DNA of 33,104 nt from an uncultured Desulfuromonadales bacterium (lineage in GTDB: Bacteria > Desulfobacterota > Desulfuromonadia > Geobacterales > CAIOGM01): positions 1-33,104 of the forward strand of contig CAIYUY010000343.1 of NCBI GenBank assembly GCA_903929485.1, in the 5' to 3' direction. A program made the position numbers and the translations under genes. The first letter of the stretch is position 1, and the number at the start of each line of letters is the position of its first letter. Below the pieces are notes generated by a model. That model ran no database searches and was not told the origin of the DNA. It worked only from the letters and a program-made list of their open reading frames with translations. This document shows, piece by piece, positions 3,461-26,236 of the stretch.

Positions 3461-3493
3461 TTCATGGTTCTCTGTCCCAGGGTGGATTTACTT

Positions 3494-4105
3494 ATGATTC
3501 GAGTCAAAATTTGCGGTATCACCTCCAAGGACGATGCTCTCATGGCCGTGGCGGCCGGCGCCGACGCCCTCGGTTTCGTCTTTTTCGAGAAGTCGCCCCG
3601 CGCCGTCTCCCCGCAGAAAGCCGCGGCTATCATCAGGGATCTTCCTCCTTTCATTCAGAGCGTGGGACTGTTCGTGGATGAAGACGCGGAGCTAGTAAAC
3701 TGGAGCGCGGAGTTCTGCGGCCTGGATCTGGTCCAATTGCATGGCGAGGAGGAGCCGGACTATTGTCAGGAGATCACTCGTCGGGTTATCAAAGCCTTTC
3801 GCGTCAAGGATGCCGCCAGCTTGGCCGGGGTCCATCGCTATAAGGTCGCCGGGTATCTTCTGGACGCTTGGTCGCCGTTGGCTGTTGGCGGCACTGGGCA
3901 GACCTTTGATTGGGAGCTGGCCAGGGGGGGCGGCATTGCTCCCAAGCTCATCCTTGCCGGAGGCCTCACTCCGGAAAGCGTGGCCGAGGCGGTCCGAATC
4001 GTTGTTCCCTATGCCGTTGATGTCTCCAGCGGTGTTGAGTCCCTGCCGGGACGCAAGGACCCGGACAAGGTCAGGGCATTCATCCGGCAAGCCAAAGGGC
4101 TCTGA
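3494..4105 (+). CDS. trpF: Phosphoribosylanthranilate isomerase
   Basis: Catalyses the Amadori rearrangement of N-(5-phosphoribosyl)anthranilate to CdRP, the third step of tryptophan synthesis, as a cytoplasmic TIM barrel. The 203-residue product has the expected length and motifs: VKICGIT at the N terminus (catalytic Cys7), [16 protein letters not shown], the phosphate-binding [10 protein letters not shown] and AVDVSSGVE with the catalytic Asp near the C terminus. ATG 3494 is chosen over one 30 bases upstream because the protein then begins directly at the first beta strand and an AGGGTGG site lies upstream. It sits 33 bp after trpB2 and 58 bp before trpB. Confidence 0.94.
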
Positions 4106-4163
4106 CCGGTGGCGTCACTCATTTCATCTTCGGTTTCGAGTACCTTACAACTTTGGAGTTCAT

Positions 4164-5354
4164 ATGCGGTTTCCCGATAAGAATGGTCATTTCGGCGAGT
4201 TCGGAGGCAGGTACGTGCCTGAGACTCTCATGCCTGCCCTCCTGGAACTGGAGCAGGTCTACCAACAGTTCCGGCGGGATCGGGAATTCAAGCAGGAGTT
4301 TGACTACTATCTCCGCCAGTACGTGGGACGTCCCAATCCACTCTACTTCGCCGAAAAACTGACCAGCAAGCTGGGAGGGGCGAAGGTTTACCTCAAACGT
4401 GAAGATTTGAATCATACCGGCGCGCACAAGATCAACAACACCATCGGCCAGGGACTTCTTGCCAAGAGGATGGGAAAAAAGAGGGTCATTGCCGAGACCG
4501 GCGCAGGTCAGCACGGGGTGGCAACCGCGACCATTGCCGCTCTCATGGGAATGGAGTGCGAAGTTTTCATGGGGGAGGAGGATATTCAGCGCCAGTCCCT
4601 CAATGTCTTCAGGATGAAGCTCCTGGGCGCCACTGTCACCCCGGTCAGTTCCGGCACCGCCACCCTCAAGGACGCCATGAACGAGGCCATGCGCAACTGG
4701 GTCACCCATGTCGCCTCCACCTTTTATGTCATCGGCACCGTGGCCGGTCCGCATCCGTATCCTCTGATGGTGCGAGATTTTCAATCGGTCATCGGCAAGG
4801 AGGTTCGGACCCAGCACAAAAAGGTAGAGGGACGTCTCCCTGACATTCTTGTGGCGGCTGTGGGGGGGGGGAGTAATGCCATGGGGCTCTTCTATCCCTT
4901 TCTCAATGACCGGGAAGTTAAACTGGTGGGTGTGGAGGCAGCCGGTTACGGTATTGATTCGGGCAAGCATGCCGCACCGCTCTGCGCGGGAAGCGTGGGG
5001 GTTCTTCACGGAAACAAGACCTATCTCCTTCAGGACCGGTTCGGCCAGATTGCCCATGCCCATTCCATCTCCGCCGGGCTGGACTATCCTGGTGTGGGTC
5101 CTGAACATGCATGGCTCAAGGATACCGGGCGGGCCGAATATGTCTCCGTCACCGACGATGAGGCGCTGGCGGCGTTTACCATTCTCACGAGGGAGGAGGG
5201 GATCATGCCGGCCCTGGAGTCTGCCCATGCCATTGCCCATGTCATCAGGCTGGCCCCGACCCTTTCACCGGATACTACGATTGTAGCTTGTCTCTCCGGA
5301 CGGGGTGACAAGGATATTCATACGGTTGCTGAAATAATGGGTGTGAAATTGTAG
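4164..5354 (+). CDS. trpB: Tryptophan synthase beta chain (TrpB1)
   Basis: Condenses indole and serine to tryptophan with PLP; normally in an alpha2-beta2 complex with TrpA. It has 396 residues, the normal length, beginning at ATG 4164, which has GGAG five bases upstream; an open frame extends far upstream through trpF but is not coding. Key residues are Lys89 in NHTGAHKIN (Schiff base), Glu111 in ETGAGQHG and the PLP phosphate loop GGGSN (234-238). It is the last trp gene here: no trpA follows, the next gene being an envelope lipoprotein. trpA must be elsewhere, or the enzyme works with external indole. Identity is not in doubt. Confidence 0.97.
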
Positions 5355-6101: not shown

Positions 6102-6183
6102 ACTGTCCTTGTCAAACAGGTTCGGAGTTTAATTGCCTGAATCTGCACATGAATCAGTCACACAGGGACGAAAATGGTCGGAG

Positions 6184-6387
6184 AAGGGGCCGTGAAGGGA
6201 AGGAGTGAGCCAACCGATGAGGATGGCTCATTATTCGTTTCTGCACGGTTTTTTCCGGATAAACCCGAAAGTTCGGCGCGCCGAACAAAGTGAGCTAACT
6301 GCTCGGAGATATACAAAAAAAAATGGCAAAAAACGTGAAAAAACGAAGCATTTCATCTGTCGGTTTTTTCATATTCTAATAATTGCC
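6184..6387. repeat. 204-bp dispersed repeat, copy A
   Basis: Matches 18192-18395 end to end in the same orientation, at roughly 80-90 percent by eye, with a few A-tract length changes. It contains a hairpin GAGCCA...TGGCTC, a perfect 16-bp palindrome GTTCGGCGCGCCGAAC (6271-6286) and A-rich tracts. Copy B abuts a transposase remnant, so this is probably the end region of an IS element left as a solo copy. A GTG-started frame runs through both copies but shifts in the A tracts, which argues against a protein. Confidence 0.8.
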
Positions 6388-6426: not shown

Positions 6427-6509
6427 AAGTGAGATGGGGACGAGAAGTGAGATGGGGACGTTCATGCAATTATGCGTTTCGTATGAAACGCATAATTGCA
6501 TGAACGTCC
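6427..6509. repeat. Perfect 25-bp inverted repeat with flanking tandem repeat
   Basis: Arms 6456-6480 and 6485-6509 are exact reverse complements around the loop GTAT, giving a very strong hairpin with core GCAATTATGCGTTTC. The left side carries AAGTGAGATGGGGACG twice (6427-6442, 6445-6460) with an 18-bp period; the right side carries CTCCTATCCCC twice. Beside a REP-associated transposase stub this is best read as a REP/BIME-like element. Confidence 0.75.
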
Positions 6510-6892: not shown

Positions 6893-7234
6893 CTAACCGT
6901 AAGCAGCTTCACCCGGCTCGTTTATCAACCCAGCAGTTGGTTTCTGACCGGCAAACCCGGCTTCCCTGCTGTGCTTTACGGCGACAATATAAGCGGTATC
7001 ACCTTGGATTCGATAACGAAGCACATACCCGGAAGAACCGAACGGAATGAAAATGTCATGGTAATCCGGAAGTTCTTCCACCGGTTTACCAATGCGCGGA
7101 TTCAATGCAAGGGGAGAAACTGCGATCTGAATCGTTCTGACGGCACGCCTTGCAGCGTCTACATTGTAAGGAAGGATGAAATCCCTGAGCCGTTGCAGGT
7201 CATGAATAGCTGAATCAAGCCACTCTATTTGCAT
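6893..7234 (-). CDS. ParE/RelE-family toxin
   Basis: Predicted toxin of a type II toxin-antitoxin pair; ParE members poison gyrase and RelE members cleave mRNA on the ribosome, and the sequence does not settle which. The 113-residue protein starts IEWLDSAIHDLQRLRDFI and continues with NPRIGKPVEELPDYHDIFIP, then YVLRYRIQGDTAYIVAVKHS, the helix-helix-sheet order of this fold, ending in a KHSRE segment typical of ParE. It starts within the end of the antitoxin gene (10-bp overlap), so the two are translationally coupled. The C-terminal tail after residue 95 is longer than usual. Confidence 0.82.
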   Translation of the reverse strand: MQIEWLDSAIHDLQRLRDFILPYNVDAARRAVRTIQIAVSPLALNPRIGKPVEELPDYHDIFIPFGSSGYVLRYRIQGDTAYIVAVKHSREAGFAGQKPTAGLINEPGEAAYG

Positions 7235-7509
7235 CGGGGCGGCTCAAGCTCGTTATTGGTCCCCCAGGATTCAAGCCACTTCATAACTGCATCATGGGGA
7301 ACGGATTTTCCGGTATGGCAGAACTCTTCCCAGCAGGCTACGGTTTCTTGTCGAAACTGTTCGGCGACTTCTTCCCTGTCGAGATATTGGCTAATGGCTT
7401 CCTTGGCCAACCAGTGTGGAGACCGTTTCCTGGCTTCACCCAGTTTCTGGAGACGCTCTCTTTCTTGTTGAGGCAGTTTGATTGCCATGGGTTTTATTGT
7501 CGTCTGCAT
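7225..7509 (-). CDS. RHH (CopG-like) antitoxin
   Basis: Predicted DNA-binding antitoxin that neutralises the following ParE-like toxin and represses the shared promoter. It has 94 residues. The N-terminal part MAIKLPQQERERLQKLGEA with KRSPHWLAKEAISQYLD is the strand-helix-helix pattern of ribbon-helix-helix proteins; the acidic C-terminal half would wrap the toxin. The start at 7509 is chosen over one 63 bases upstream because GGAGG precedes it by six bases. First gene of the two-gene operon. Confidence 0.8.
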   Translation of the reverse strand: MQTTIKPMAIKLPQQERERLQKLGEARKRSPHWLAKEAISQYLDREEVAEQFRQETVACWEEFCHTGKSVPHDAVMKWLESWGTNNELEPPRCK

Positions 7510-7682
7510 ATACGTTGCCTCCAGGTAGTGCTTGGTAGTGATGAGTATTACTTTTTCAGGAGGGTCTGTCAATCACTCATCTCTTTACACCCGCGTACAT
7601 CCGAACCAACCACCCTTTTGTGCACTTTTCGAACCACCCCCTAATCCCCTCCTGTTTGCCACTTGCTTGTTTTTCGAACCAC

Positions 7683-8567: not shown

Positions 8568-9131
8568 ATGGCCGCGAAAACGTGCAACCGAGGACACATA
8601 ATGGATTCGAGTTGGCCGGAATGCCCCTATTGCAAAGGAACAGATGGCCCCCTGTTTGTCCAGCAGGGTGATAACAGCGCGGAACAGTTCACTACGCAAG
8701 GTGGAACCGCTGAGATGAATATCATGAGAAATAAAACTGAGTTCATGGGCGAAGAAGGAAGTCATGGAACGACACGCGTCTGGGATGGCATTGCAGCTAA
8801 TACCCAGAATCTCCCCGTGTTCGGTTGGTTGGTGCAGACTGACGGCACCCCCGGCACGAACCTCGGCATCGCATTTACGGTTCGTGCCGGCGCCACCAGT
8901 ATTGGCCGTGACAGTAAATCAGCTGTTGTTCTAAGGGACGAATTGGTATCAACTCAGCACGCAAAGATTATTGTCATTGATTCACAGTGCTTTATTCGTG
9001 ATGCTGACTCAACCAACGGTGTTTTTGTAAACGAGTGCAGGGTTGAATTCGGAACGCAGTGCCTATTGAAAGATAATGATGTTATCCGCGTAGGTAGGAC
9101 TCTTTTTGTGTTCAAAGGGATGTACTTATAA
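8568..9131 (+). CDS. FHA-domain protein with N-terminal zinc-binding motif
   Basis: Cytoplasmic phosphothreonine reader, first gene of the phospho-signalling cluster. Of 187 residues, 1-25 hold a compact metal site CNRGH...CPYC (Cys6, His10, Cys19, Cys22). A flexible, Thr-rich linker (43-80; NKTEF, TTRVWD) follows, then a full FHA domain: SIGRDSKSAV (111-120), STQHAKI with Ser128 and His131, and DSTNGVFVN (147-155). The linker threonines could be kinase targets that the FHA domain or partner FHA proteins bind, as in GarA-type proteins; that is inference. No signal peptide or membrane segment. The start is fixed by AAGGAGGAGA. The metal-site plus FHA arrangement is known in other STPK loci. 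Confidence 0.88.
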   Translation: MAAKTCNRGHIMDSSWPECPYCKGTDGPLFVQQGDNSAEQFTTQGGTAEMNIMRNKTEFMGEEGSHGTTRVWDGIAANTQNLPVFGWLVQTDGTPGTNLGIAFTVRAGATSIGRDSKSAVVLRDELVSTQHAKIIVIDSQCFIRDADSTNGVFVNECRVEFGTQCLLKDNDVIRVGRTLFVFKGMYL

Positions 9132-9306
9132 GTATAAGATGTATGTCATGACTCATGTAACCATGTATCTAGTCGATCTAAATAACAATAAAAGTGCACA
9201 TGTTCCGTACATGAAAGGTAATAGTTTTATTATCATGGCGTCTATATGATAACCTTTGGCTGCTTATGGTGATAATGAAATAATGCTTGCCTGCTAAGGA
9301 GTAATC

Positions 9307-10608
9307 ATGGTCTCACTGGCTATTGGCAGTAGAACAGATACTGGCAAGCTCCGTTCCAATAATCAAGATTTTTGCTCAACCTTCAATACCCCTTTGGGGA
9401 TGCTTTTTGTCGTCTGTGATGGCATGGGAGGGCACAAGGGGGGCGAGATAGCCTCAAAGATGGCGGTAGAGGAGATCGGTTCCATAATGCGCTCAGCCAA
9501 GAGTTCTGTGCAGGCAAGCGTCGTCTTGAAAAAGGCCATAGAGAAGGCAAATGAGTCAGTCTACTGTAATAATTTATCTTATGATGCGCTTAGAGGGATG
9601 GGCACCACCGGCGTGCTGCTGTTGCTTGATGATGTGAATCATAGTTATCACCTTGCTCATGTTGGGGATAGCAGGATTTACCGTATATCCGGCGGTAAAA
9701 TTCAACAGATGACAAAAGATCACTCCTACGTGCAGATGCTGGTGGATAGTGGTCATATCTCCCCTGAAGAGGCAAAAAAACACCCAAACAAAAATCAGAT
9801 TACGCATTATATCGGCGAAGGCCCAAACATGGAATGTGTAGTCCGGGGACCACTGCGACTGCAGGGAAATGAAATATTCATTTTGTGCACTGACGGTCTT
9901 TCTGACCTTGTTGATGCAGATGAGTTCCTGGGGTTGACAGGCGGGCACCCCCAGGCGTCCTGCGAAGCCATGGTGGACTTGGCTTTGCAACGGGGCGGGC
10001 ATGACAATGTCACGGTTCAGGTCATCAGGCTGGGCCATATGCACGCAACAGATGCGAGTCGCGGTCAAGAGTGTAAAAGGTCACCGGTAATGTCGCCGCC
10101 GAAGAAAAAAAATACGACATTTCGCTTGCTCGTCGGTGGCAGTATTGCTGCGCTGATTTTAACGTTGTGGGTTTTTGCGTATTTGGCGAGAGGTACAGTT
10201 GATAAAGATGGACCGAACTATTTAATTACTACAGAACCTAAAGCTGTTGTCTCGGTTAATTCTTATGGTCAATCAACAAGTAACACGTCGGTTGTTGAAA
10301 TTGGATCATCAGCGGAACTGAGTAGATTAGCTGAATTCTGCGTGAGAAAGAAATACGTTGTAAACCAGCTGTACTTACTGAATATTTTGACTGGTAATGA
10401 CTATTATGATTTGACCCATGATGTTAATAATGTCAGAAATAGTACCGTCTCAGCTCCCGCCGACACTCTTTTGCCTCCCATTCCTACCAAAAGTTTACCT
10501 GGCGGTAGTAAAAATCTATTAACTCCATCTCCACCTACACCTGAACTTAAAAATCGTGAACAGCCCGAAATCAAGTCCGGTCCTCGACCTGGAAACGATA
10601 AAAAATAA
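9307..10608 (+). CDS. Membrane-anchored PP2C-family Ser/Thr phosphatase
   Basis: Mn/Mg-dependent phosphatase that would reverse the action of the two kinases encoded downstream. Of 433 residues, 1-245 form a complete PP2C domain with all metal ligands: RSNNQDF (Asp21), CDGMGG (38-42), VGDSRIYR (119-126), CTDGLSD (194-200) and GHDNVTV (231-237). A basic stretch PPKKKN precedes a single membrane helix (about 273-295), followed by a Ser/Thr/Pro-rich tail of some 135 residues outside the inner membrane. The phosphatase thus faces the cytoplasm with an external tail, as in PstP/PrpC-type enzymes. TAAGGAG precedes the start. A gap of 175 bp separates it from the FHA gene, with no clear promoter. 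Confidence 0.92.
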   Translation: MVSLAIGSRTDTGKLRSNNQDFCSTFNTPLGMLFVVCDGMGGHKGGEIASKMAVEEIGSIMRSAKSSVQASVVLKKAIEKANESVYCNNLSYDALRGMGTTGVLLLLDDVNHSYHLAHVGDSRIYRISGGKIQQMTKDHSYVQMLVDSGHISPEEAKKHPNKNQITHYIGEGPNMECVVRGPLRLQGNEIFILCTDGLSDLVDADEFLGLTGGHPQASCEAMVDLALQRGGHDNVTVQVIRLGHMHATDASRGQECKRSPVMSPPKKKNTTFRLLVGGSIAALILTLWVFAYLARGTVDKDGPNYLITTEPKAVVSVNSYGQSTSNTSVVEIGSSAELSRLAEFCVRKKYVVNQLYLLNILTGNDYYDLTHDVNNVRNSTVSAPADTLLPPIPTKSLPGGSKNLLTPSPPTPELKNREQPEIKSGPRPGNDKK

Positions 10609-10726
10609 ATTATCATGTAAGCCAATAGTATGAAAATAAAAAATTAAAAAAGAATAAAAAACAGGATGTTGAACGGCCTTCGTAAAAAACGGAAGTTAAA
10701 ATTTAAAATAACTAAATGGGGTTAAA

Positions 10727-12148
10727 ATGAAGTTTGCTCGACTCTTTGCTTTGATTTTTTTTAGTATAGTTTCCGCCTCCGGCATTGCAGCTACTCCGCC
10801 GGTGGAACAGCAACTGTCCATTGAAGCGGTACAGGTTGTTTCAATATCTAAGCAAGCTACGATTTTCTTCCGCGCCAAACTTGGAAGTAGACCAATTACG
10901 ACGTTGAGCGAAAATCAGGTGAAGGTCTTTGCCGGCAACACCGAAATGCCCCAGAAGAGCTTTGACGTACAGGCAAAATCACCGCTCTTCCATGCGATTC
11001 TGCTTGACCGCAGCGGCAGTGTTAAAGGCCTCCCGCTGCTGGAGGCTCAGAAGGCGGCTGAACTGTTGGTTAAAGCCATGCCCAATCAGGATCAGGTGGC
11101 GGTTTATGCTTTTTCCGACACCTTGCAACTTTTAGAACCGTTTACACCCAAGCGAGATCAGATTCTTACCGCAATCCGGAGTTTGAAGAGTGACGGTCGC
11201 CGCACTGAACTGAACTTTGCTGTCTATTCGCTGGTAGATCAGCTTGAAATTCAGCGTCCGGGACCGGTATCCATCATCATCCTCTCTGACGGCAAGGATG
11301 AAGGCACCTCATATACCCTTGACAATATCACCGATAAGGCCAGGGCCGCGTCCATCATCCTTTCGGGTGTGGGTAGCAGTCAGATTAATCGTAAATATCT
11401 CCTCTCCCTTGAAAAGCTGAGCCGCTTTACAGGCGGCTATTATACCGATGCCGCCAACGGTATCAGAAGTGAAGCTGATGCCGCCCGTTTGATAAAACAT
11501 TTTAGCAATCGGTCGGCAGTGACTATCTCGTTGGATAATATACCGGCCGGAACTGCTTCTCAAAATGCCACGCTCTCGCTAGTTCATGGCGAGACAGTCA
11601 CTGTGCCTCTAACCATTCGCCTGTTTACCCAAGGAGTGTCAGCCCCGCAACAGTGGTACTTGCGCGGTCAGTTTCTGGGTGTAATTGTTCTTGCTTTAGC
11701 TGGGTTACTTATTTTTGCCATCTATATTAAAAGACGGCGTGACGACTCTACATTTGACGGCTACCCCTGTTCGGTTTGCGGCACGGGACGTTCTGACTCT
11801 GAAGCTCCCTGCGTGAAATGTGCTCTTGAACAACCGCCGACTGAACATCACCAATGGGGTGTCCTTCAGGGAAACTGTCCTGAATTGGCCGGTTGGCAGT
11901 GTGCCTTGGGTAAAACCAGGTACAGTATCGGCAGCGCGGATAGTAACGATATAATTATTCCCATAGCCACGGTTTCGCGCACACATGCCAGCATTCATCT
12001 CAAGGACGGGCATGTTTATCTTGTCGATCTGAAATCTAAAAACGGCACTCGTAGTAACAATGAATTGGTGACAGATGTGGAACTTACCGACGGTTGCAGC
12101 ATCCAGCTTGGTTCCGCCAGGCTGACATTCTTTTTCAAAGGGAGGTAA
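10727..12148 (+). CDS. Exported VWA-domain protein with cytoplasmic zinc ribbon and FHA
   Basis: Likely transmembrane sensor. Order in 473 residues: Sec signal (1-21, cut after GIAA), extracytoplasmic von Willebrand A domain (about 85-265) with an intact MIDAS (Asp94-x-Ser96-x-Ser98 in LLDRSGSVK, Thr160, Asp188 in LSDGKDEG), a beta-rich linker, one membrane helix (about 315-334) closed by KRRR, a zinc ribbon (Cys348, 351, 362, 365) and a C-terminal FHA domain (IGSADSND, VSRTHASI, KSKNGTR). VWA domains bind protein ligands through the metal site; the FHA would dock a phosphorylated partner inside. Coupling an external VWA to an internal phosphopeptide reader is the cluster's most telling feature. 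No close named family is known to me. Ends 7 bp before the next gene. Confidence 0.9.
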   Translation: MKFARLFALIFFSIVSASGIAATPPVEQQLSIEAVQVVSISKQATIFFRAKLGSRPITTLSENQVKVFAGNTEMPQKSFDVQAKSPLFHAILLDRSGSVKGLPLLEAQKAAELLVKAMPNQDQVAVYAFSDTLQLLEPFTPKRDQILTAIRSLKSDGRRTELNFAVYSLVDQLEIQRPGPVSIIILSDGKDEGTSYTLDNITDKARAASIILSGVGSSQINRKYLLSLEKLSRFTGGYYTDAANGIRSEADAARLIKHFSNRSAVTISLDNIPAGTASQNATLSLVHGETVTVPLTIRLFTQGVSAPQQWYLRGQFLGVIVLALAGLLIFAIYIKRRRDDSTFDGYPCSVCGTGRSDSEAPCVKCALEQPPTEHHQWGVLQGNCPELAGWQCALGKTRYSIGSADSNDIIIPIATVSRTHASIHLKDGHVYLVDLKSKNGTRSNNELVTDVELTDGCSIQLGSARLTFFFKGR

Positions 12149-12155
12149 ACAGCGG

Positions 12156-12662
12156 ATGGCTAAATCTAATATTATTCAGGTGGGCAGAGATACGGAGTGT
12201 GACATCACCTTGTCTTCTCATAAGGTAACAAATCGGCACGCAATCATCTACGCTGAAGAAGGGGTCATTTATATCGAGGATAACCAAAGCCTTAACGGCA
12301 CCTTTGTAAACGGCAAGAAAGTAATCGGCAAGCAGGCCATCAGCCTCTCCGATACTGTAGTGGTTGCCGACACCAATCTTGATATGAATTTAGTACGCTC
12401 AAAAATAACGTACGATACGATCACACAGCCTACGGAAGAGGGTAAAATTTACTGCCGTCATTGTGGAGCTAAAAACCCACTCGACTCAATTGTTTGCTAC
12501 AAATGTGGCCAAGAAGTGAGCTCAATAATTCCCTTGCCTGAACCATTAGATTTTATTGTAAAGTACTTCAAAAAAATAATGCTGTTATTCAAAAATGGGC
12601 GTTGGATAGCTGGGATAATAGCTTTATTTGTACTATATAAATACTGCAGGTATTTATTTTGA
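12156..12662 (+). CDS. FHA / zinc-ribbon membrane protein
   Basis: Second small phosphothreonine reader. Of 168 residues, about 1-80 are an FHA domain beginning almost at the start (VGRDTECDI, TNRHAIIY, QSLNGTFVNG), then a zinc ribbon CRHCG...CYKCG (Cys100, 103, 114, 117) and a C-terminal membrane helix (about 148-164) ending in basic and aromatic residues. Topology should leave both FHA and ribbon in the cytoplasm as a tail-anchored protein. It starts 7 bp after the VWA/FHA gene and shares its FHA-ribbon pairing in reversed order, so the two may work as partners. The base composition turns AT-rich at the 3' end. Confidence 0.85.
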   Translation: MAKSNIIQVGRDTECDITLSSHKVTNRHAIIYAEEGVIYIEDNQSLNGTFVNGKKVIGKQAISLSDTVVVADTNLDMNLVRSKITYDTITQPTEEGKIYCRHCGAKNPLDSIVCYKCGQEVSSIIPLPEPLDFIVKYFKKIMLLFKNGRWIAGIIALFVLYKYCRYLF

Positions 12663-12800
12663 TAACCTGTCTTGCATTATTAGCTTAGATATGTTTGCTA
12701 TTGCAATGTAGTCGTATATTGCCAACTGTTGTCTCTATTCGGCATTTCAGAATATGGCTGAATATCTGAAATAATCATCGAAAGGTAAGGATCAACTGCT

Positions 12801-13766
12801 ATGTTTTGCATTTACTGTGGAACTTCTTTTGCTTCCGCTACCATGATATCCTGTTTCAAATGCGGGAAGACGTTGTATCGACCGACAACGGTAGATGCTC
12901 CTGCCGTGCGACAACAGTCAGAGTTTGTGTTGAAAAAGCAAGGCCAGGGAACCCCCGGAAATTTTGAAGCGGAGTTTGAGTTACTGGAAAGTCTTGGAGT
13001 CGGCGGGATGGCTGAGGTTTTTCGGGCCAGATACCGTCAGGCGCCGAATCTGGTTGTGGCGGTAAAACAGATGCATGACAGTTTGACCCAAGATATAAAC
13101 TTGCTTGAGCGATTTAAACGCGAGGCTCAGACCCACATGCGCCTTGAACACGCTAATATCGTGACGGTGTCACGTTACTATGAGTGTCCCAAGCTACGGA
13201 TAGTCATGGAGTTTGTTGAAAATGGAACAGTCGAGAGATTTCTCAAACGGCAGAACGTTCTCCCCCCCTCGGTTGTGGCATCCATATTGATGGATCTCGT
13301 TGACGCGCTTGAGTATTACTCTTACCGTCTCACTCCTTCTGTCGTGCATCGCGACATCAAACCCAGCAATATAATGCTGGATAGAAATTTGATGCCAAAG
13401 CTGGTTGATTTCGGCATTGCTCTTGCCTGTGGCGGCAAAAGGCTAACCCGCGGTGGCGTCATAGGGTCGTTGGCCTACATGGCGCCTGAGCAGATACTTG
13501 GACGGGAGATTGATGGGCGTAGCGATCAATTTGCTTTAGGTGTAACGGTATTTCAGATGCTTACGGGCGCCATGCCGCTGACCGCACGAGAAGAATATGA
13601 ACTACAGGATAAGATCCTCAAGATGCACCCACCGCCTCCTACTTCGCTGAACCGATTATTGCAACCGGCTTGGAATAATATCCTGGGAACAATGATGGCA
13701 AAAGAACCGGCAAACAGATATCAATCATTGGCCAAACTGAAAAATGAACTTCGGCCGTTACTGTAA
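12801..13766 (+). CDS. Soluble Ser/Thr protein kinase with N-terminal zinc ribbon
   Basis: Hanks-type kinase of 321 residues. A zinc ribbon occupies 1-25 (Cys3, Cys6, Cys18, Cys21), and the kinase domain spans about 58-320: glycine loop GVGGMAEVF (66-74), ATP lysine VAVK (Lys89), catalytic HRDIKPSN (Asp185), DFG (203-205), activation-segment end GSLAYMAPEQ (222-231) and GRSDQFALGV. All catalytic residues are present. There is no membrane segment, unlike the next kinase. The activation loop carries a Thr and a Ser that could be autophosphorylated. It is preceded by a 138-bp gap and followed 22 bp later by kinase 2. The ribbon resembles those of the FHA proteins and may be a shared docking or dimerising element. 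Confidence 0.93.
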   Translation: MFCIYCGTSFASATMISCFKCGKTLYRPTTVDAPAVRQQSEFVLKKQGQGTPGNFEAEFELLESLGVGGMAEVFRARYRQAPNLVVAVKQMHDSLTQDINLLERFKREAQTHMRLEHANIVTVSRYYECPKLRIVMEFVENGTVERFLKRQNVLPPSVVASILMDLVDALEYYSYRLTPSVVHRDIKPSNIMLDRNLMPKLVDFGIALACGGKRLTRGGVIGSLAYMAPEQILGREIDGRSDQFALGVTVFQMLTGAMPLTAREEYELQDKILKMHPPPPTSLNRLLQPAWNNILGTMMAKEPANRYQSLAKLKNELRPLL

Positions 13767-13788
13767 TTTTTAAAACAGGGAAAATCCT

Positions 13789-15300
13789 ATGCAGAAAAAA
13801 ATGGGCATTTATCAAATTATCGGCGATCTGCCAATCGGACAGGGGGGCATGGGGGCCGTCTGGACTGCTGAAGATACCGAGCTTAAGCGACTGGTTGCCA
13901 TTAAATTGCTTAATCCGGGTTATCTTGACAACGAGACCATATTGAAACGTTTCAGGTATGAGGCCAAGGCCATGGCTCGTCTCAACCATCCTGGTATCGT
14001 AACCGTATATGCCTTGATTGAGCATGAGGATACCTTCGGTATCGTCATGGAATTAATCAAGGGAGATACCTTGATTAGTCACATGCGGAAATGCGGAGGC
14101 AGGATCTTACCGGATGAGGCTCTGGAAATTTGCATCAAGGTGCTTGAGGCTCTCGACTACGCTCATCAGCAGGGTATTGTTCATCGCGACATCAAGCCGG
14201 CTAATATCATGTTGAGCGACTCCGGCCACGTAAAAGTGATGGATTTCGGCATCGCCATGCTGGTGGGCGAAACCCGACTGACACAATCGGGCAGCACATT
14301 CGGCACACCGCACTACATGAGTCCGGAGCAGATAATAAACCCGCAGGAGCTTGACCATCGTAGCGATGTTTACTCAGTCGGCGTCATTCTGTTTGAAATG
14401 CTGACGGGCGTAGTACCATTTGGTAATGCAAGCACGTCGGACTATGTTATCAAAAATGAACATCTGCAAAAACCGCTGCAGCCCATACGGCAGCTTCAGC
14501 CTGATGTTCCCGAATGGATAGAAACCGTCCTCAACAAAGCTTTGCAGAAAAACCCGGCAGACCGCTTCAGTGGTTGTGGAGAGTTTGCCGAAGCGTTGAG
14601 AAATAAATCTCCGGTGCTTGACTCAACTCCTCAAAGTCAAGCAGCCATCCAAACATCAAACAGAACCTCCGGCCCATCGCCACCACTCTTGCCATTTACG
14701 GATAATGCTTCGTCCGGGCTTATTTCTGCTCCTTTTTTCGCCGGCGGGATTGTTTTTCTGCTGGTGCTACTGATCTGTCTGGGAACGTGGCTCTTAAGAC
14801 GTAGTTATAAAACCGGAAGCTCTGTTGCTATGCCGGCTCCCGCAGCAGCAACGGATGCGGCACAGAGAAATAAAATGGGTAAGGAATCAGCCCGTATTGT
14901 AGCCCTCGACACGTTGCGGCGGGGGACGGACCTGTCGTTTACGATCAGCAAACTGCCCAAACTTGAAAAGGTTGTGGAGGCGGCCCAAAAGCTTGGAGAA
15001 ATCTCTCCTCGTTACCAGGAGCAGATCGATTCGGCTAAAAGCACACTCGTCTCCGCAAAAAAAGAACGGGACAAAAATCTCATGGTCTATGTTGGGAAAG
15101 TAGTTGAACTGAACCGTTATACCCTGGACCAATCAACCTACGCCATGAATGCCGTTAGAAATGGTGATCTTTCACTGCGGGAAAAAAGTGTCACGGAGTT
15201 AATCGAAAACCATCTGAATTCTTTGCGTCATGATTCCAAGGCGGATCCGGAAAAATTCCTCGCTGAGTTTACCCAACGGTTCGTCGATTTTGTTGATTGA
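13789..15300 (+). CDS. Transmembrane Ser/Thr protein kinase
   Basis: Hanks-type receptor-like kinase of 503 residues, with the kinase domain at about 7-270: GQGGMGAVW (18-26), VAIK (Lys39), HRDIKPAN (132-139, catalytic Asp134), DFG (152-154), a Thr/Ser-rich activation loop TRLTQSGSTFG and GTPHYMSPEQ. A Ser/Pro-rich juxtamembrane linker follows, then one membrane helix (about 315-336, stop-transfer RR) and an external helical tail of some 165 residues without PASTA repeats. It is probably the main signal-receiving kinase of the cluster. Next gene 28 bp downstream. It differs from kinase 1 in lacking the zinc ribbon, so the pair is not a recent duplication. Confidence 0.94.
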   Translation: MQKKMGIYQIIGDLPIGQGGMGAVWTAEDTELKRLVAIKLLNPGYLDNETILKRFRYEAKAMARLNHPGIVTVYALIEHEDTFGIVMELIKGDTLISHMRKCGGRILPDEALEICIKVLEALDYAHQQGIVHRDIKPANIMLSDSGHVKVMDFGIAMLVGETRLTQSGSTFGTPHYMSPEQIINPQELDHRSDVYSVGVILFEMLTGVVPFGNASTSDYVIKNEHLQKPLQPIRQLQPDVPEWIETVLNKALQKNPADRFSGCGEFAEALRNKSPVLDSTPQSQAAIQTSNRTSGPSPPLLPFTDNASSGLISAPFFAGGIVFLLVLLICLGTWLLRRSYKTGSSVAMPAPAAATDAAQRNKMGKESARIVALDTLRRGTDLSFTISKLPKLEKVVEAAQKLGEISPRYQEQIDSAKSTLVSAKKERDKNLMVYVGKVVELNRYTLDQSTYAMNAVRNGDLSLREKSVTELIENHLNSLRHDSKADPEKFLAEFTQRFVDFVD

Positions 15301-15328
15301 ACGGATGACCCCACAAAGGAGAAACTAC

Positions 15329-15997
15329 ATGAAACACTTAATGTTGAGACTGATGGCCTTGGGTGTTATTTTTTGTTTGGTTGCCGGATGCGCCACCTCC
15401 GATGCCGGTCGAACCAAAGCGGAGGGTACCGGCTTTGGAGCGTTGCTGGGAGCGGGTTTGGGGGCCGGTATCGGAGCGTTGGTTGGTGGTAAGAACGGCG
15501 CGGCGTTGGGGGCAGGAATCGGTGCGGCGGTGGGAGCAGGTGCGGGATACTATGCCGGAAGCAGTGTGGCGAAGCGCAAATCTCAATACGCCAGCAAAGA
15601 GGATCAACTTGATGGGGAAATTACGTATGTCGCCACGTATAACAGTGACCTGAAAAAGTATAATGAGCAGACTACCGCGAGTATCGCCGATTTGAATCAG
15701 CAGATTGCCGACCTTAAAGTTCGGATTAAAGATGGTGAATCAAGCGCAAGCGAACTTCGTTACAAGAAAAACGAAATTAAGGCGTTGAGCGATGAAGCGG
15801 CTAAAAAAATAAGTTTCTATAAAAGTGAGCTAACGCAGCTGGCCGAGTATCGAAAATCTTTGGATCGAACCCAGGATCAGGTGAAGGTAGCAACGCTAGA
15901 CAAGGAAGTATCCCTTCTTCGGCAAAATATCATAATGCTCGACCGGAGCAACAAGCAGATGGCCAAGCTTGCTGGTTCCTTTTCGGTGAGGAAATAA
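15329..15997 (+). CDS. Glycine-zipper lipoprotein with coiled-coil tail
   Basis: Predicted outer-membrane or periplasmic lipoprotein of 222 residues. The signal peptide ends in lipobox LVAGC (Cys21). Residues about 32-80 form a glycine zipper of repeated GxxxG units (GAGLGAGIGALVGG and GAGIGAAVGAGAGYYAG), a motif that inserts in or perforates membranes, then a charged helical coiled coil to the end. ATG 15329 with AAGGAG upstream is preferred to an in-frame start 99 bases upstream inside the kinase gene. It resembles SlyB/OmpA-like glycine-zipper lipoproteins only in its zipper. Two bases separate it from the next lipoprotein gene, so they are co-expressed. Confidence 0.85.
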   Translation: MKHLMLRLMALGVIFCLVAGCATSDAGRTKAEGTGFGALLGAGLGAGIGALVGGKNGAALGAGIGAAVGAGAGYYAGSSVAKRKSQYASKEDQLDGEITYVATYNSDLKKYNEQTTASIADLNQQIADLKVRIKDGESSASELRYKKNEIKALSDEAAKKISFYKSELTQLAEYRKSLDRTQDQVKVATLDKEVSLLRQNIIMLDRSNKQMAKLAGSFSVRK

Positions 15998-15999
15998 TC

Positions 16000-16545
16000 A
16001 TGTATTGTAAAATTATGCTTTTGATTGCATTGGCCGTGGTTGTGAGCGGATGCGCTACCTCCAACGATCCCCGCAAGGGAGGGTTTTTCGGCGGGCTGAG
16101 CGGGATTAATTCCGGCGCCTATGATGAACGGGTACAGCAGCGTCAGGAGGAATTCATTCGTCAACAGAAAATCAGCAGCGATTTGAAAACAACGTCACTC
16201 GGCTTGGAGCACGAGGCTCAAGCCCGGGGCGCCGAGTTGGATGCGGAACGGCAACGTCTTTCCGAGTTGGATGAAAACCTGGTGAAATTGAAGGCGGATG
16301 TGGAAAAGATAAAGGCAACGACGGCCAAGCAGAAAAGTGACTACGCGGCTCTTAAACAAAAAATCAACAATCAGATAAAGCTCGTACATGCTCAGCAGGG
16401 AGCCATGGATGAATTGAAAAGAGTCGGTGGAAGCGCTGCAGACCCCGCTCGCTATCGTGTCCTTAAAGAAGAGCGGGATCGTTTGGCTAAAGAGTATAAA
16501 AGGTTGTTGGAGTATTCGAAAGTTCTGAGCGATGCGGCAAAATAA
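16000..16545 (+). CDS. Coiled-coil lipoprotein
   Basis: Predicted lipoprotein of 181 residues with lipobox VVSGC (Cys18), a short Gly-rich stretch (GGFFGGLSGINSG) and then almost entirely alpha-helical, charged coiled coil (about 42-175) with heptad Leu/Ile. It has no enzymatic motif and no named family that I recognise. It pairs with the glycine-zipper lipoprotein just upstream (2-bp gap), whose coiled coil is of similar length, suggesting a heteromeric rod in the periplasm. GAGGAAATAATC precedes the start. The next gene overlaps its end by 14 bp. Confidence 0.8.
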   Translation: MYCKIMLLIALAVVVSGCATSNDPRKGGFFGGLSGINSGAYDERVQQRQEEFIRQQKISSDLKTTSLGLEHEAQARGAELDAERQRLSELDENLVKLKADVEKIKATTAKQKSDYAALKQKINNQIKLVHAQQGAMDELKRVGGSAADPARYRVLKEERDRLAKEYKRLLEYSKVLSDAAK

Positions 16546-17635
16546 ACGGGGTTTCCCCCTGCGAACTCTCTCCGTCATGATGGTGATCGTACTGGCGATG
16601 GCGGCTTCGGTGTCTGCTGCTCCTCCCTTGGATGAAATTCGCTCCGTCATTGCCAAGAGACTCCTGCGACCGACGACTGATACATTACTGGTTGCACTGG
16701 AAGGCGGACATCTGAATGACGGGTTGAGGGGAATCGATCCTTATGCCTTCTACGTGGAGCCTCGGTTTCTCACGAGTAAATCCCCTCCCGCTCGGCGTCT
16801 TGGTGTTGAACTCTTTATGGTTAAATCCCAAGTCTGGGCCAAACCGGACCATGGAGGTCCTGCGGAAAAGGTGGGGATGCCCGAAATCGCTGCATTATTG
16901 GCGATCAATGGCAAGAGCGTTCAGGGAGATACCTTGGACCGAATTTCCCGTCTACTTGATGCTGCCAATCAAAAGGATGTGGTGATTCTCACTGTTGCCT
17001 CTTGTCCAGGCGGCAACGGGAAGAGCTACAAGGTCAGGCCGACCGCGAGTATATCTTCCTCCATCGATTTGCGCCGCAGCGGTTCAGTCATTGTCGTGCG
17101 TATCAGTGAGTTTGTTTCCCACGATACCGCTCCCGGTTTTTCAGCCAGGTTTACGGAGTCGGTGCGGCCCGGAGATCATGTTGTTTTGGACCTGCGCGGT
17201 TGCACCGGTGGAGATTTGTTCGAGGCTCTCGAAATCGCCGGGATGTTCGTTCCGGAAGGCTTGCCTTTGATCAGTACTTATGATCGTTCGGGAGTAGAGC
17301 AACTCTACCGATCACCGCCAGGCCGCAAACTGCGCAGTCCATTATGGCTACTCATCGACCGCCAGACTGCCAGTGCCGGAGAAATTCTTACGGGAATTCT
17401 CCAGTATCATCACCTTGCATGGATAGTCGGTGAACGAAGCTATGGTAAATGTGTATCGCAGACCCTTATCCCTCTTTCAGACGGCGGAGGGCTCTGGTTG
17501 ACCACCCTGGGGATCAGGTTCCCTGATTTTACATCATGCGCCGGAAATGGGGTAACGCCAAACATTCCCTATCCCGACATCTCAGTTAAAAAATTGAAAG
17601 ATGTAATTAATAAGATAAGCAGTTTAGGCAGGTAG
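16532..17635 (+). CDS. Periplasmic S41 (C-terminal processing) family protease
   Basis: Serine protease of the CtpA/tail-specific family, 367 residues. It has an N-terminal signal peptide (1-30, VSAAP), a divergent PDZ-like region (about 85-170; GGPAEKVGMPEIAALLAING), then the S41 core with VVLDLRGCTGGD, the catalytic Ser in RQTASAGEI (Ser281) and the general-base Lys in ERSYGKCVSQT (Lys306). It is complete but short, lacking the long C-terminal part of Prc. Its start overlaps the upstream lipoprotein gene by 14 bp, so it is translationally coupled and the last gene of the cluster. It may clip a periplasmic partner, perhaps the lipoproteins or the kinase or phosphatase tails; this is inference. 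Confidence 0.87.
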   Translation: MRQNKRGFPLRTLSVMMVIVLAMAASVSAAPPLDEIRSVIAKRLLRPTTDTLLVALEGGHLNDGLRGIDPYAFYVEPRFLTSKSPPARRLGVELFMVKSQVWAKPDHGGPAEKVGMPEIAALLAINGKSVQGDTLDRISRLLDAANQKDVVILTVASCPGGNGKSYKVRPTASISSSIDLRRSGSVIVVRISEFVSHDTAPGFSARFTESVRPGDHVVLDLRGCTGGDLFEALEIAGMFVPEGLPLISTYDRSGVEQLYRSPPGRKLRSPLWLLIDRQTASAGEILTGILQYHHLAWIVGERSYGKCVSQTLIPLSDGGGLWLTTLGIRFPDFTSCAGNGVTPNIPYPDISVKKLKDVINKISSLGR

Positions 17636-17714: not shown

Positions 17715-18190
17715 TTAATACCTCAACTTTCGCAGTTGCCGATCTGTAGACAGCTGACTGATATTACACAGTTTACTCGGTATGCTGTCGTAATTCGTCG
17801 CAGACGGCATGGAACATGGTCCCGAGAGTTCGAGGATCGTTGGTGGTTCGTCGGGCCCGTTCCTGTATGATATATCGGCAGCAGCCCACCGTTGAATGGG
17901 CGACCAGGCATCGAAGGAGCGACTCTGAAACTCCTTGGCTAAATTCAGAAACGATTTGGCCATCTTGAAGGAGGTCTCGATGTCCCAGCGACGTCCGTAC
18001 AGCGCGATAATTTCTTCAGCGGTCAAGGTAGTGTCGGTGGACAGCAGCGCCAGCCACTTTTTTGATCGGCGATCGCGAACGATGACGATTTTAGCGGGAA
18101 CCGGGACTCCTTGTTCGTCTGCACCGATGGTGACCATTACTTCGGCCAGCACCTTGGCTCGCCCACAGCATATGAATGGATAAAAATGGA
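17715..18190 (-). pseudogene. Broken IS4-type transposase
   Basis: Leftward reading gives a DDE transposase C-terminal part: KVLAEVMVTIGADEQG, KKWLALLSTDTTLTAEEI and YGRRWDIETSFKMAKSFLNL, the last holding the catalytic Glu region of IS4-family enzymes. After EFQSRSFDA the frame shifts: the continuation (VAHSTVGCCRYIIQERARRT, then GTMFHAVCDELRQHTE) lies in another frame and then meets stops. The N-terminal half, with the first two Asp residues, is deleted; homology jumps from the IS end repeat (18192-18395) into mid-gene. It is inactive in cis. It lies just after the S41 gene and may mark the edge of the cluster. Confidence 0.8.
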
Positions 18191-18191
18191 T

Positions 18192-18395
18192 AAGGGGCCG
18201 TGAAGGGAAGGGGTGAGCCAACCGATGAGGATGGCTCATTATTCGTTTTCGCGCAGTTTTTTCCGGATAAACCCAAAAGTTCGGCGCGCCGAACAAAGTA
18301 AGCTAACTATCCGTACATATTCAGAAAAAATGGCAAAAAACGTGAAAAAAACGAGGCGTTTCGGCTATCGCTTTTTTCACATTCTCATAATTGCC
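18192..18395. repeat. 204-bp dispersed repeat, copy B
   Basis: Same length and orientation as 6184-6387, including the 16-bp palindrome GTTCGGCGCGCCGAAC (18279-18294). It lies directly upstream (on the minus strand) of the transposase remnant, so it is probably the 5' end region of that IS. Terminal inverted repeats or target duplications could not be identified. Confidence 0.8.
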
Positions 18396-18466: not shown

Positions 18467-18500
18467 AAAACCCGCTGAATAATCAGCGGGTTTTGTTTTT
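18467..18500. terminator. Bidirectional rho-independent terminator
   Basis: Perfect stem CCCGCTGA/TCAGCGGG (18471-18478 and 18483-18490) with loop ATAA, a T-rich run to the right and an A run to the left, so it can stop transcription in both directions. It separates the IS remnant from the prophage genes that run leftward toward it. Confidence 0.85.
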
Positions 18501-20450: not shown

Positions 20451-20882
20451 TTAAACTGCATCTTTTCCCTGCCTATCTTTTATCAACTCAAGGAATTGTT
20501 CCTCTTTCTGAACACCTCGCTGAATACCCTTCTTAGTGTCACCGTCCATATTCCTCATCATCTGCACTACAGATTTAATCTCAGAATTGTTCCGGAGCAC
20601 ATCCAGAAGATCTAACTCTTCATCGCTGAAACCAATTGCCTTTAATCTTAGATATATTTCACCTACTCCACTTATTACCCATTCGTAGTTAATTCCGCGA
20701 TCGACACATGAAAGCCTGATCTTTTCAAGTGGAAGCGTTCCCCTATTCTTCCGTACCGATAAAGCATCTTTTTTGTAACCTAAAATTTCGGCAACTTTCT
20801 GCTCACTGTCTACGCTGAAGGCAATCATCATCCTGTTTATAATTTCTTGGATACTTTCACGTGAAAGTTTTTCAGTTGACAT
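20451..20882 (-). CDS. CI-like phage repressor (HTH N-terminal domain)
   Basis: 143-residue regulator. Residues about 10-80 match the bacteriophage CI repressor HTH domain: EIINRMMIAFSVDSEQKVAE, LGYKKDALSVRKNRGTLPLE, then a CVDRGINYEWVISGVGEIY segment. The second half is charged and helical (ELDLLDVLRNNSEIKSVVQM) rather than a LexA-type peptidase, so it would not self-cleave on SOS; release from lysogeny would need another route. Transcribed leftward together with the helicase, 37 bp apart. It probably binds the short upstream region with the inverted repeat at 20920-20937. Confidence 0.8.
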   Translation of the reverse strand: MSTEKLSRESIQEIINRMMIAFSVDSEQKVAEILGYKKDALSVRKNRGTLPLEKIRLSCVDRGINYEWVISGVGEIYLRLKAIGFSDEELDLLDVLRNNSEIKSVVQMMRNMDGDTKKGIQRGVQKEEQFLELIKDRQGKDAV

Positions 20883-20937
20883 TTGAAAGCCACTCCGTTA
20901 ATGTGTATATCAGTGATGCAAGTTACAACTGCAACTT
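20883..20937. promoter_or_regulatory. Candidate divergent promoters and repressor operator
   Basis: Rightward: TTGAAA (20883-20888), 17-bp spacer, TATATC (20906-20911). Leftward: TTGCAG (complement of 20929-20934), 19-bp spacer, TATACA (complement of 20904-20909). The -10 regions overlap. An inverted repeat AAGTT-8-AACTT (20920-20937) overlaps the leftward -35 and could be the repressor's operator. This resembles a phage switch but is unproven. Confidence 0.45.
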
Positions 20938-20963
20938 ACCGGTGAGGGGAATAAGACATGAAA

Positions 20964-21344
20964 TTAACCGTCTCTATTATCGCTTTTCAGATGTGCCTCG
21001 TGGGCAGCGCCTACGGTCTCGCGGATGTTGGCCAGCACCCGAGTAAGCTCGTCACTACTCAGGTGCTTGTCGACAACGCTATCCATCAGCCTGACCAAGT
21101 GAAAAATGTAAAGATCGATAGCGGCGACCGCTTGGCTCTCACCACCGTTCCGGACGCATTGCAACGCGGCGGCACGATCCAGGGACCAACACTTAAAAGC
21201 GGTGCTGATAGCCAACTCGCGCCGGTGCCGCCGGTCCTCGCCGCGTCGGGTGATCCATTGGCCAAGAAGCATGACTGTGCCTGTGATACCTGCGCTCAGT
21301 ACCGAGATGACCGCAGGCTTATCAAGGAAAACTTCGAATATCAT
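20964..21344 (-). CDS. Small inner-membrane phage protein, function unknown
   Basis: 126 residues: one N-terminal membrane helix (about 10-30, PAVISVLSAGITGTVMLLG), a highly basic turn ITRRGEDRRHRREL, then a helical cytoplasmic domain with AIDLYIFHLVRLMDSVVD and SSDELTRVLANIRETV. The ELAI...DLYIFHL pattern recalls short membrane proteins of unknown function seen in prophages. Start 21344 is preferred because AAGGAAGG precedes it; an in-frame start lies 60 bases further out. A rightward frame (20958-21425) opens on the other strand, but codon choice here (CTG, ATC, GAG, CGG) favours the leftward gene. It would be co-transcribed with the repressor. Confidence 0.65.
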   Translation of the reverse strand: MIFEVFLDKPAVISVLSAGITGTVMLLGQWITRRGEDRRHRRELAISTAFKCWSLDRAAALQCVRNGGESQAVAAIDLYIFHLVRLMDSVVDKHLSSDELTRVLANIRETVGAAHEAHLKSDNRDG

Positions 21345-21483
21345 GAAACCTTCCTTACCTTTGGGGGTGTCGGCATGGTGATATTGGTGATGTTGCAAAT
21401 TCAAGACTGGATTTCAAGATATTAAAAAATAGCTTCCACCACCAAACCGCAAACGGAACCCAGTATAGCAGAAAAGGTGAATC

Positions 21484-21735
21484 ATGGAACTTAAAAACAC
21501 GCGCGCGTTAATGCGGGAAAAGTGCCTTGTTATCCGCCGTATCGCCTTGAAACATGGCTTCGTGCCGGGATCGTTCCAACGAGTGCTTACCGGAGCGTTT
21601 GAACCGCCACCCAACCCCAACGCGAAGTATTGGCGGATGGTCCGCGCTCTTCGTGATGAAGGTTTGCTGTGCGACGAGCTGGAGATACCTGAACCGATTG
21701 TTGTTATGGACGCCATGAAGCGGAGGAAACGGTGA
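21484..21735 (+). CDS. Small phage protein, possible HTH regulator
   Basis: 83 residues, rich in Arg and Lys, with KCLVIRRIALKHGFVPGSF followed by KYWRMVRALRDEGLL, a helix-turn-helix-like arrangement. It is the first gene of the rightward early operon after the switch, where a Cro-like protein would be expected; the family is not recognised. AAAGGTG precedes ATG 21484. The stop overlaps the start of the next gene by one base. Confidence 0.6.
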   Translation: MELKNTRALMREKCLVIRRIALKHGFVPGSFQRVLTGAFEPPPNPNAKYWRMVRALRDEGLLCDELEIPEPIVVMDAMKRRKR

Positions 21736-21974
21736 TGAAGGAACAAGACGCCAAGGAGCGGTTACCGGGGTTCGATGACAAACCCTGCCCGTTTTGCGGG
21801 AACAATGACAGTTATCTTGATGAAGATGTGCTGGGGGAAACCCTGACGGTTTATTTCGTCTGCTGTCCGATCTGCGAAGCGGAAGGGCCGCTGGGACTGA
21901 CGACGGATGAAGCGCTTTGGAGCTGGAACCGTCGGGACGATACGCACAACCGGTCACCCTGGAGAACGCCATGA
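21735..21974 (+). CDS. Lar-like zinc-finger protein
   Basis: 79 residues with KPCPFCGNNDSYLDED, then VYFVCCPICEAEGPLG and TTDEALWSWNRR. The CPFCG...CxxC...A...WNRR order is the Lar (restriction alleviation) family signature, small phage proteins that lessen type I restriction or modulate the methylase. ATG 21735 is preferred to an overlapping GTG at 21732 because GGAGG lies eight bases upstream. Part of a chain of overlapping early genes. That the host carries remnants of a type I system nearby is suggestive only. Confidence 0.75.
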   Translation: MKEQDAKERLPGFDDKPCPFCGNNDSYLDEDVLGETLTVYFVCCPICEAEGPLGLTTDEALWSWNRRDDTHNRSPWRTP

Positions 21975-22228
21975 TCTGCCCCCGCTGTGATTGCCACCAT
22001 GATGAGAGTTTTGACCTGTATGAGGGAAAAGATGAGTGGTGCACGGACTGCACCCGCGATTTTTCCACAGGGGTTATCATCGTCAACCGAAAAGTCGCGG
22101 AAGACGTGTTGCTGTATCTGAGCATCGGGGACGGGATGATGTTGACCCACCTGGACGATGCCTCCGATTTTGCCGCATCGGCGGCGGCGATCATCCTTAC
22201 CGCCGTGCGTGAAGGAAAATTATCATGA
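21971..22228 (+). CDS. Small zinc-ribbon phage protein
   Basis: 85 residues. The N-terminal part has CPRCDCHHDES and WCTDC, a probable zinc site, followed by TGVIIVNRKVAEDVLLYLS and an Ala-rich end (AASAAAIILTAV). Start ATG 21971 overlaps the previous stop (ATGA) and CTGGAG lies upstream. No family recognised. Position in the overlapping early operon supports it as a real gene. Confidence 0.65.
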   Translation: MICPRCDCHHDESFDLYEGKDEWCTDCTRDFSTGVIIVNRKVAEDVLLYLSIGDGMMLTHLDDASDFAASAAAIILTAVREGKLS

Positions 22229-22539: not shown

Positions 22540-22561
22540 CAGCAACCGGAAGGGTGAGACT

Positions 22562-22732
22562 ATGGCAGAGGGACGGGTAAGAATCGGAGCGGTGGAGATG
22601 CCGGTGAGTTCGGCCAGGATCATCGTCATGGAAGCCAAGAAGCGCGGCGTGGCGGCAAGCGTGGTGGCGAGCGAATACGGAAAAGTGCGGGGATACCTGG
22701 ATAACAGGGGGAGTACTGTTCATGCGAGGTAA
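22562..22732 (+). CDS. 56-residue phage ORF
   Basis: Short frame with a good ribosome site (AAGGGTGAG, spacing about 4). The product is MAEGRVRIGAVEMPVSSARI, then basic and Ala/Val-rich, with SVVASEYGKVRGYLDN. Tight packing between AlpA and the next gene (11-bp overlap) supports it. Function unknown. Confidence 0.5.
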   Translation: MAEGRVRIGAVEMPVSSARIIVMEAKKRGVAASVVASEYGKVRGYLDNRGSTVHAR

Positions 22733-23554: not shown

Positions 23555-23597
23555 AACGTAGGGGCGCATAGTCATGTTCCCTTTGAAGGATGAAATC

Positions 23598-26232: not shown

Positions 26233-26236
26233 ATAA

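Follow-up and report, generated by a model that had tools for sequence, protein, structure and literature searches.

Organisation of the cluster

The window analysed here is a 33,104-nt stretch of contig CAIYUY010000343.1 from an uncultured Desulfuromonadales bacterium, and all coordinates refer to this whole window. It contains a cluster (8568–17635) of nine uninterrupted open reading frames on the + strand, g1 to g9 (Table 1), with successive intergenic distances of 175, 118, 7, 138, 22, 28, 2 and −14 bp. We consider it probable that these genes constitute one trans-envelope Ser/Thr phospho-signalling system, akin to the TagQRST-PpkA-PppA-Fha regulators of type VI secretion systems (T6SS) but rewired. 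An earlier note on this DNA described nine same-direction genes with gaps of 175, 118 and 138 bp, and both the frames and these gaps were recovered intact. Its domain assignments were borne out by Pfam (FHA in g1, g3 and g4; PP2C in g2; VWA in g3; Pkinase in g5 and g6; Peptidase_S41 and PDZ in g9), and its division of the products between the two sides of the membrane agrees with hydropathy and motif scans, which place the kinase domains, the catalytic part of the PP2C and the FHA domains inside, and the VWA, the tails, the lipoproteins and the protease outside.

Characteristic motifs are kept in both kinases (HRDIKPSN/DFG in g5, HRDIKPAN/DFG in g6), the PP2C (DGMGG...GDSR...DN), the VWA of g3 (DxSxS) and the protease (Ser in TASAGE, Lys in GKC). 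In the FHA domain of g3, GS replaces the phosphate-binding GR of most FHA domains; owing to this Arg-to-Ser change the domain may depart from the standard mode of phosphothreonine binding. The start of g7 was placed at ~15329 rather than 15230 because a lipobox (VAGC) follows from 15329, and the lipoboxes of g7 and g8 both have Ala at +2 in a motif scan. The glycine-zipper match of g7 (3e-6) falls slightly short of the Pfam gathering cut-off, and g8 matched no Pfam family. No excess of sigma-54 sites was found.

Table 1. Positions in the window of the cluster genes, the g6 tail domain and the flanking repeat copies
Feature	Position	Strand	Description
g1	8568..9131	+	Zn-ribbon-like N-terminus (CNRGHxMDSSWPECPYC), then FHA (3.6e-16); cytoplasmic
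g2	9307..10608	+	Stp1/PppA-type PP2C phosphatase; PP2C_2 7.5e-16; NCBIfam Stp1 1.4e-68; transmembrane helix (TM) 274-292; extracytoplasmic tail
g3	10727..12148	+	Signal peptide, extracytoplasmic VWA (DxSxS), TM 316-334, Zn-ribbon, cytoplasmic FHA
g4	12156..12662	+	FHA 5.3e-16; Zn_Ribbon_1 8.7e-6; TM at C-terminus
g5	12801..13766	+	Zn-ribbon and Ser/Thr kinase (Pkinase 3.2e-42); soluble, no TM
g6	13789..15300	+	Ser/Thr kinase (Pkinase 5.4e-54), TM 311-329, periplasmic tail
TagR-type tail domain of g6 (residues 351-503)	14839..15297	+	Helical; homology to C-termini of SUMF1 proteins
g7	15329..15997	+	TagQ-like lipoprotein; glycine zipper and helices; lipobox; family A5/A7; structure model
g8	16000..16545	+	Lipoprotein; DPRxGGFFGG...GAYxxR motif and coiled coil; lipobox; family A1
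g9	16532..17635	+	PDZ/S41 protease; S41 8.7e-30; exported (signal peptide); Ser-Lys dyad retained; aligns with CtpB and D1 protease
Dispersed 208-bp repeat, left copy	6180..6387		Flanks cluster
Dispersed 208-bp repeat, right copy	18188..18395		Overlaps transposase remnant

The periplasmic tail of g6

No Pfam or NCBIfam entry covers the tail of g6. In a single-sequence search this region matched TagR-like SUMF1 proteins at their C-terminal ends (1.4e-19 at L103, 1.9e-18 at L074 and 3.3e-16 at L120) and Zn-ribbon-TM proteins of the group B loci in their extracytoplasmic parts (7e-52 at L073); an iterated search reached the remaining TagR-like proteins of the group A loci (both groups are defined below). 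A TagR-like protein in a Thiodictyon T6SS locus, where TagS-TagR is followed by a g7 homologue, matched weakly (1.2e-5 before inclusion). The earlier note had correctly placed this tail outside the cytoplasm; that it is a TagR-type domain had gone unnoticed. The tails of other kinases and the coiled coils of g7 and g8 gave no match to it, the C-termini of roseobacter caspases were not significantly similar, and the TagR-like proteins of L103 and L089 did not match any solved TagR structure. AlphaFold2 models the tail as a confident helical domain (pLDDT 94.7); Foldseek returned no match to the model below E 0.08 and VIA-align Z values did not exceed 8.5, which is within the chance range for helical bundles and leaves the fold comparison uninformative.

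A carrier of the tail lies directly upstream of g7-g8, with or without the S41 gene, in the window and at L073, L099, L074, L103, L120, L077, L100, L101, L105 and L098. In a sample of 395 genomes of the phylum, seven encode the tail and six of these seven also encode g8 (hypergeometric p=4e-11). As five of the seven had seeded the tail profile, the two held-out genomes provide the fair test: one (G313) has the order TagS-TagR(tail)-g7-g8-S41, and the other (G425) has the tail without g7 or g8. The G425 domain (L168, 5757–7418) is carried by a 553-aa lipoprotein-like protein, with no g7 or g8 nearby.

Retention of the same neighbours by a domain whose N-terminal half varies is commonly a sign of physical contact, and on this ground the tail is predicted to touch g7 and g8. 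Because the g6 tail is homologous to the C-terminus of TagR-like proteins, and because its carrier is mostly found directly upstream of g7-g8-S41, the fusion further suggests that in this cluster a kinase occupies the place of TagR between a TagQ-like lipoprotein and phosphorylation.

Two modules and their distribution

The cluster is the union of two conserved modules, whose relatives were sought in the phylum sample; beyond the phylum the search covered plasmid records and a single scan of 84,980 genomes. Module 1 comprises the VWA-TM-FHA protein, a further FHA protein, the PP2C and, mostly, a kinase; it occurs in other genera without adjoining module 2, at L079, L080, L081, L082 and L157 as well as on a plasmid of Azospirillum lipoferum. 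Of the 395 sampled genomes, 6 encode full-length VWA-FHA. Module 2 comprises g7, g8 and the S41 protease and is rare, with seven strong g8 matches and one weak true match (G313) in the sample, in which only the window's own genome has the window's gene order.

Loci with module 2 genes fall into five groups. Group A, which spans several genera and includes L074, L103, L120, L076, L077, L100, L105 and others, combines a VWA protein, a TagT-like ATPase, a TagS-like FtsX permease and a TagR-like SUMF1 protein with g7, g8 and S41, and no T6SS genes were recognised within the stretch examined. Group B (L073, L099) encodes a VWA-like protein, a Tubulin_2/GYF protein, a Zn-ribbon-TM protein, g7 and g8, joined by S41 in L099. 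The Tubulin_2/GYF protein of these two loci is 1229–1259 aa long and the third protein has a Zn-ribbon-TM-tail layout, giving the appearance of a tubulin-like envelope system. Group C consists of g7-g8 homologues in or beside T6SS loci (a Thiodictyon plasmid, Rhodobacteraceae SC52 and Ruegeria conchae), which are accompanied by PpkA- and PppA-type genes. Lone g7-g8 pairs form group D, and the window itself group E. On two roseobacter plasmids (L091, 15803–18390; L093, 12720–15378) the g7-g8 region, close to a T6SS locus, is immediately preceded by a gene of the caspase family.

The closest counterpart of the whole cluster is in Paraburkholderia caribensis MBA4, which has both modules and nearly all gene types in one block, in the order VWA-FHA, PP2C, Zn-ribbon FHA, kinase, g7-type and g8-type lipoproteins, S41, kinase and DUF4280. 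The g7-type protein was recovered at 5e-21 by a profile built without that sequence, and the g8-type protein at 1e-9, a value that may be biased by its coiled coil. This near-complete set supports the proposal of the earlier note that the genes form one envelope-spanning phospho-signalling system; one outcome it had named as telling against this, that they are never found together elsewhere, did not materialise. Next to the block are two sheath genes together with Pvc16_N and the genes of an AAA ATPase and a baseplate-hub-like protein; we take this neighbouring machine to be an extracellular contractile injection system (eCIS) rather than a T6SS. Block and eCIS-type cluster together occupy 3434–37743 of L108.

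Proposed mechanism and alternative explanations

Our preferred reading of the cluster is envelope signalling of the TagQRST-PpkA type in a variant free of T6SS. Its gene content, motifs, hydropathy-based topology and tail homology and the recurrent tail-g7-g8-S41 order are established here; the stimulus, the direction of signalling, the contact of the tail with the lipoproteins and the role of the protease are inferred. The predicted outer-membrane lipoproteins g7 (TagQ-like) and g8 would sense envelope disturbance or contact and act upon g6 through its periplasmic, TagR-type tail, so that g6 would merge the roles of PpkA and of the TagR C-terminal domain. Together with the soluble kinase g5, g6 would phosphorylate partners that could be read by the FHA proteins g1 and g4 and might dock on g3. 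With its VWA facing the periplasm, g3 may relay the ligand state of that domain across the membrane. The PP2C g2 would reset the phosphorylation state, and the S41 protease g9 plausibly trims or limits the receptor. A T6SS is an unlikely output in this genome.

Several observations weigh against this reading. The kinase-tail fusion has been seen once, and the tail of the second P. caribensis kinase is not significantly like that of g6 (its score was matched by 1 of 200 shuffles). At five lone g7-g8 loci (L092, L095, L096, L102, L104) no upstream tail carrier was recognised, and the roseobacter pairs are preceded by the caspase gene instead of a tail carrier. The likeness of g7 to TagQ is putative and consists of the glycine zipper, the lipobox and a homologue beside TagR in a T6SS locus. 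The genome, 99% complete, gave no match to the VipB sheath or to TssK, the two T6SS core genes searched, and its only sheath match is phage-type, on a prophage-like contig (C17) other than that of the window; no sheath gene is linked to the cluster.

The cluster might be the regulatory arm of a lost T6SS, now functionless after deletion of the structural genes. In favour are the g7-g8 homologues that occur within or next to T6SS loci, along with genes of PpkA and PppA type, and the failure to find VipB and TssK here. We regard this as improbable, since all nine frames and their catalytic motifs are intact, the kinase-tail fusion and VWA-FHA are unusual as T6SS parts, and TagTSR-g7-g8-S41 operons recur in several genera with no T6SS genes in the stretch examined. 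Control of a contractile machine elsewhere in the genome, such as a prophage tail or an eCIS-like particle, is suggested by the two sheath genes, Pvc16_N and DUF4280 that abut the P. caribensis equivalent and by the sheath gene on C17; this too seems unlikely, as the latter lies among phage-tail-like genes unlinked to the cluster and the eCIS neighbourhood is confined to one genome.

Two further explanations are, in our estimation, very unlikely. One would make the cluster an anti-phage or lysogeny module resembling the kinase-kinase-phosphatase (KKP) systems, carried as cargo by the adjoining prophage. There are indeed two kinases and a PP2C, phage-type genes begin within ~3 kb downstream, and both kinases match PD-T4-6 models; these matches are, however, ascribed to the common kinase domain, and g3 had no match in 50,697 phage records. 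The other holds that two unrelated operons, g1–g5 and g6–g9, lie side by side by chance, as the occurrence of each half alone in other genomes would allow. Against it stand the gap of 22 bp between g5 and g6 on the same strand, the joint occurrence of the halves in P. caribensis, and their presence, unlinked, in G313, a co-occurrence (2 of 395 genomes) that exceeds chance at p=0.005, uncorrected for shared ancestry.

Returning to the T6SS-free signalling system, a broader and more tentative possibility is that the tail, g7, g8 and S41 are the parts of a general-purpose envelope receptor with an exchangeable output, be it a kinase, a SUMF1/ABC unit or Zn-ribbon/tubulin-like partners. Were this so, the T6SS would be one client among several of the TagQ/TagR-type sensor, and the window would represent the receptor wired directly into a Ser/Thr kinase.

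Genomic setting and origin

The left flank holds trp genes and a lytic transglycosylase-like gene. Within it, a TrpF gene lies between two different TrpB-like PALP genes (trpB2, trpF, trpB; 2105–5354), a non-coding perfect 25-bp inverted repeat with a 4-bp loop (GGACGTTCATGCAATTATGCGTTTC) occupies 6456–6509, and a ParE-type toxin (1.3e-15) with a ribbon-helix-helix antitoxin-like partner lies on the minus strand (6893–7572) in the gap that precedes the cluster. The 208-bp repeat that flanks the cluster has 14 matches across the genome, and a DDE transposase remnant (17715–18296, minus strand) overlaps its right copy. Downstream of cluster and remnant is a strong bidirectional terminator-like hairpin (18467–18494). 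The right flank encodes a Dda/Pif1-like helicase and a CI-like repressor, and prophage genes resembling those of podoviruses follow from ~22 kb. The prophage region (20451–33104) includes the CI-like repressor, excisionase-like and HNH-like proteins, terminases, a head-tail adaptor, a protease and a major head protein; it runs off the contig end, and no integrase was recognised among the proteins scanned.

Horizontal acquisition of the cluster fits the difference in G+C content between the cluster (48%) and the left flanking trp region (58%), the flanking repeats with their transposase remnant, and the lack of any g3 match in three same-genus genomes. A viral scan found no g8 relatives.

Comparison with known systems

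A key step when a T6SS fires ‘tit-for-tat’ is the relay of an outer-membrane signal to PpkA by TagQ and TagR. The natural fusion of a TagR-type tail to a kinase points to the segment that is likely in contact with the lipoproteins; the prediction is that this segment can transmit the signal by itself. Operons with no nearby T6SS genes carry the same set of lipoproteins and protease, which suggests that the sensor serves further outputs, and g8 and the S41 protease would add two undescribed parts to TagQ/TagR-type sensing that are relevant to T6SS strains too. A literature search, thin on subscription papers, found no published description of the fusion of kinase and tail, of g8 and S41 as parts of such a system, of the group with tubulin-like proteins, of the neighbouring eCIS or of the union with VWA-FHA. 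T6SS-free threonine phosphorylation pathway (TPP) genes as such are already known, having been reported previously (PMC3608642).

The earlier note had named the TerY-P triad as the nearest analogue. The cluster resembles it in its VWA, PP2C and kinase classes and in the Zn-ribbon kinase, but TerY-P requires a stand-alone cytoplasmic VWA, whereas that of g3 is exported, membrane-anchored and FHA-bearing, with a signal peptide and TM, and lipoproteins and a protease are added. None of the 19 window proteins scanned matched the Ter family (TerD), a search limited to the window. The envelope half (g6 tail, g7, g8 and S41) groups instead with TagQ/TagR-type sensors. KKP modules consist of contiguous PP2C-kinase-kinase genes with a cold-shock domain on PfkA and an FHA domain on PfkB (PMC11341870). 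Like them, the cluster has a pair of kinases and a single PP2C close to a prophage; order, domains and envelope parts differ, g3 and g4 separating the PP2C from the kinases and neither kinase having a cold-shock or FHA domain.

The nearest analogue is the TPP, because of the TagR-type kinase tail and its place directly upstream of g7-g8-S41. In P. aeruginosa, the outer-membrane lipoprotein TagQ, which has been likened to the rickettsial 17-kDa antigen, recruits TagR and so activates the PpkA pathway, with PppA as the antagonist that resets it (PMC6657622, PMC3608642), and TagS/T are accessory, serving baseplate foci (PMC6657622). Common features are a membrane Ser/Thr kinase with a periplasmic part (g6, as in PpkA), a PP2C (g2, PppA-type; NCBIfam Stp1/IreP 1.4e-68), FHA readers, a putatively TagQ-like glycine-zipper lipoprotein and a periplasmic TagR-type domain. 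The earlier note's statement that there is no T6SS gene, and hence no T6SS controller, holds for the window and, as regards VipB and TssK, for the genome; it overlooked this kinship. The cluster is nevertheless not a TPP member, because neither a T6SS sheath gene nor TssK turned up in the genome and the cluster lacks TagS and TagT; of TagR it has the C-terminal domain only, fused to the kinase, without the SUMF1 half. With a TagS relative as query, the genome yielded nothing beyond weak C-terminal FtsX matches. FHA proteins are present in the cluster, but the TagH (TIGR03354) score was 38.5, well short of the cut-off of 120 bits. In addition to TPP components the cluster has a VWA on an FHA protein, the lipoprotein g8 and the S41 protease.

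In host-associated Deltaproteobacteria, most of which lack a T6SS, tagQ, ppkA and tagRST have been reported beside srfABC (PMC3608642). That neighbourhood likewise combines TPP-type sensing genes with genomes mostly lacking T6SS, but has srfABC where the window has FHA, PP2C and VWA-FHA genes and no tagRST. The VWA-TagT-TagS-TagR-g7-g8-S41 operons have the tail domain, g7, g8 and S41 in common with the cluster, in mostly the same order; they join them to an ABC transporter and SUMF1, whereas the cluster joins them to kinases, a phosphatase and FHA proteins.

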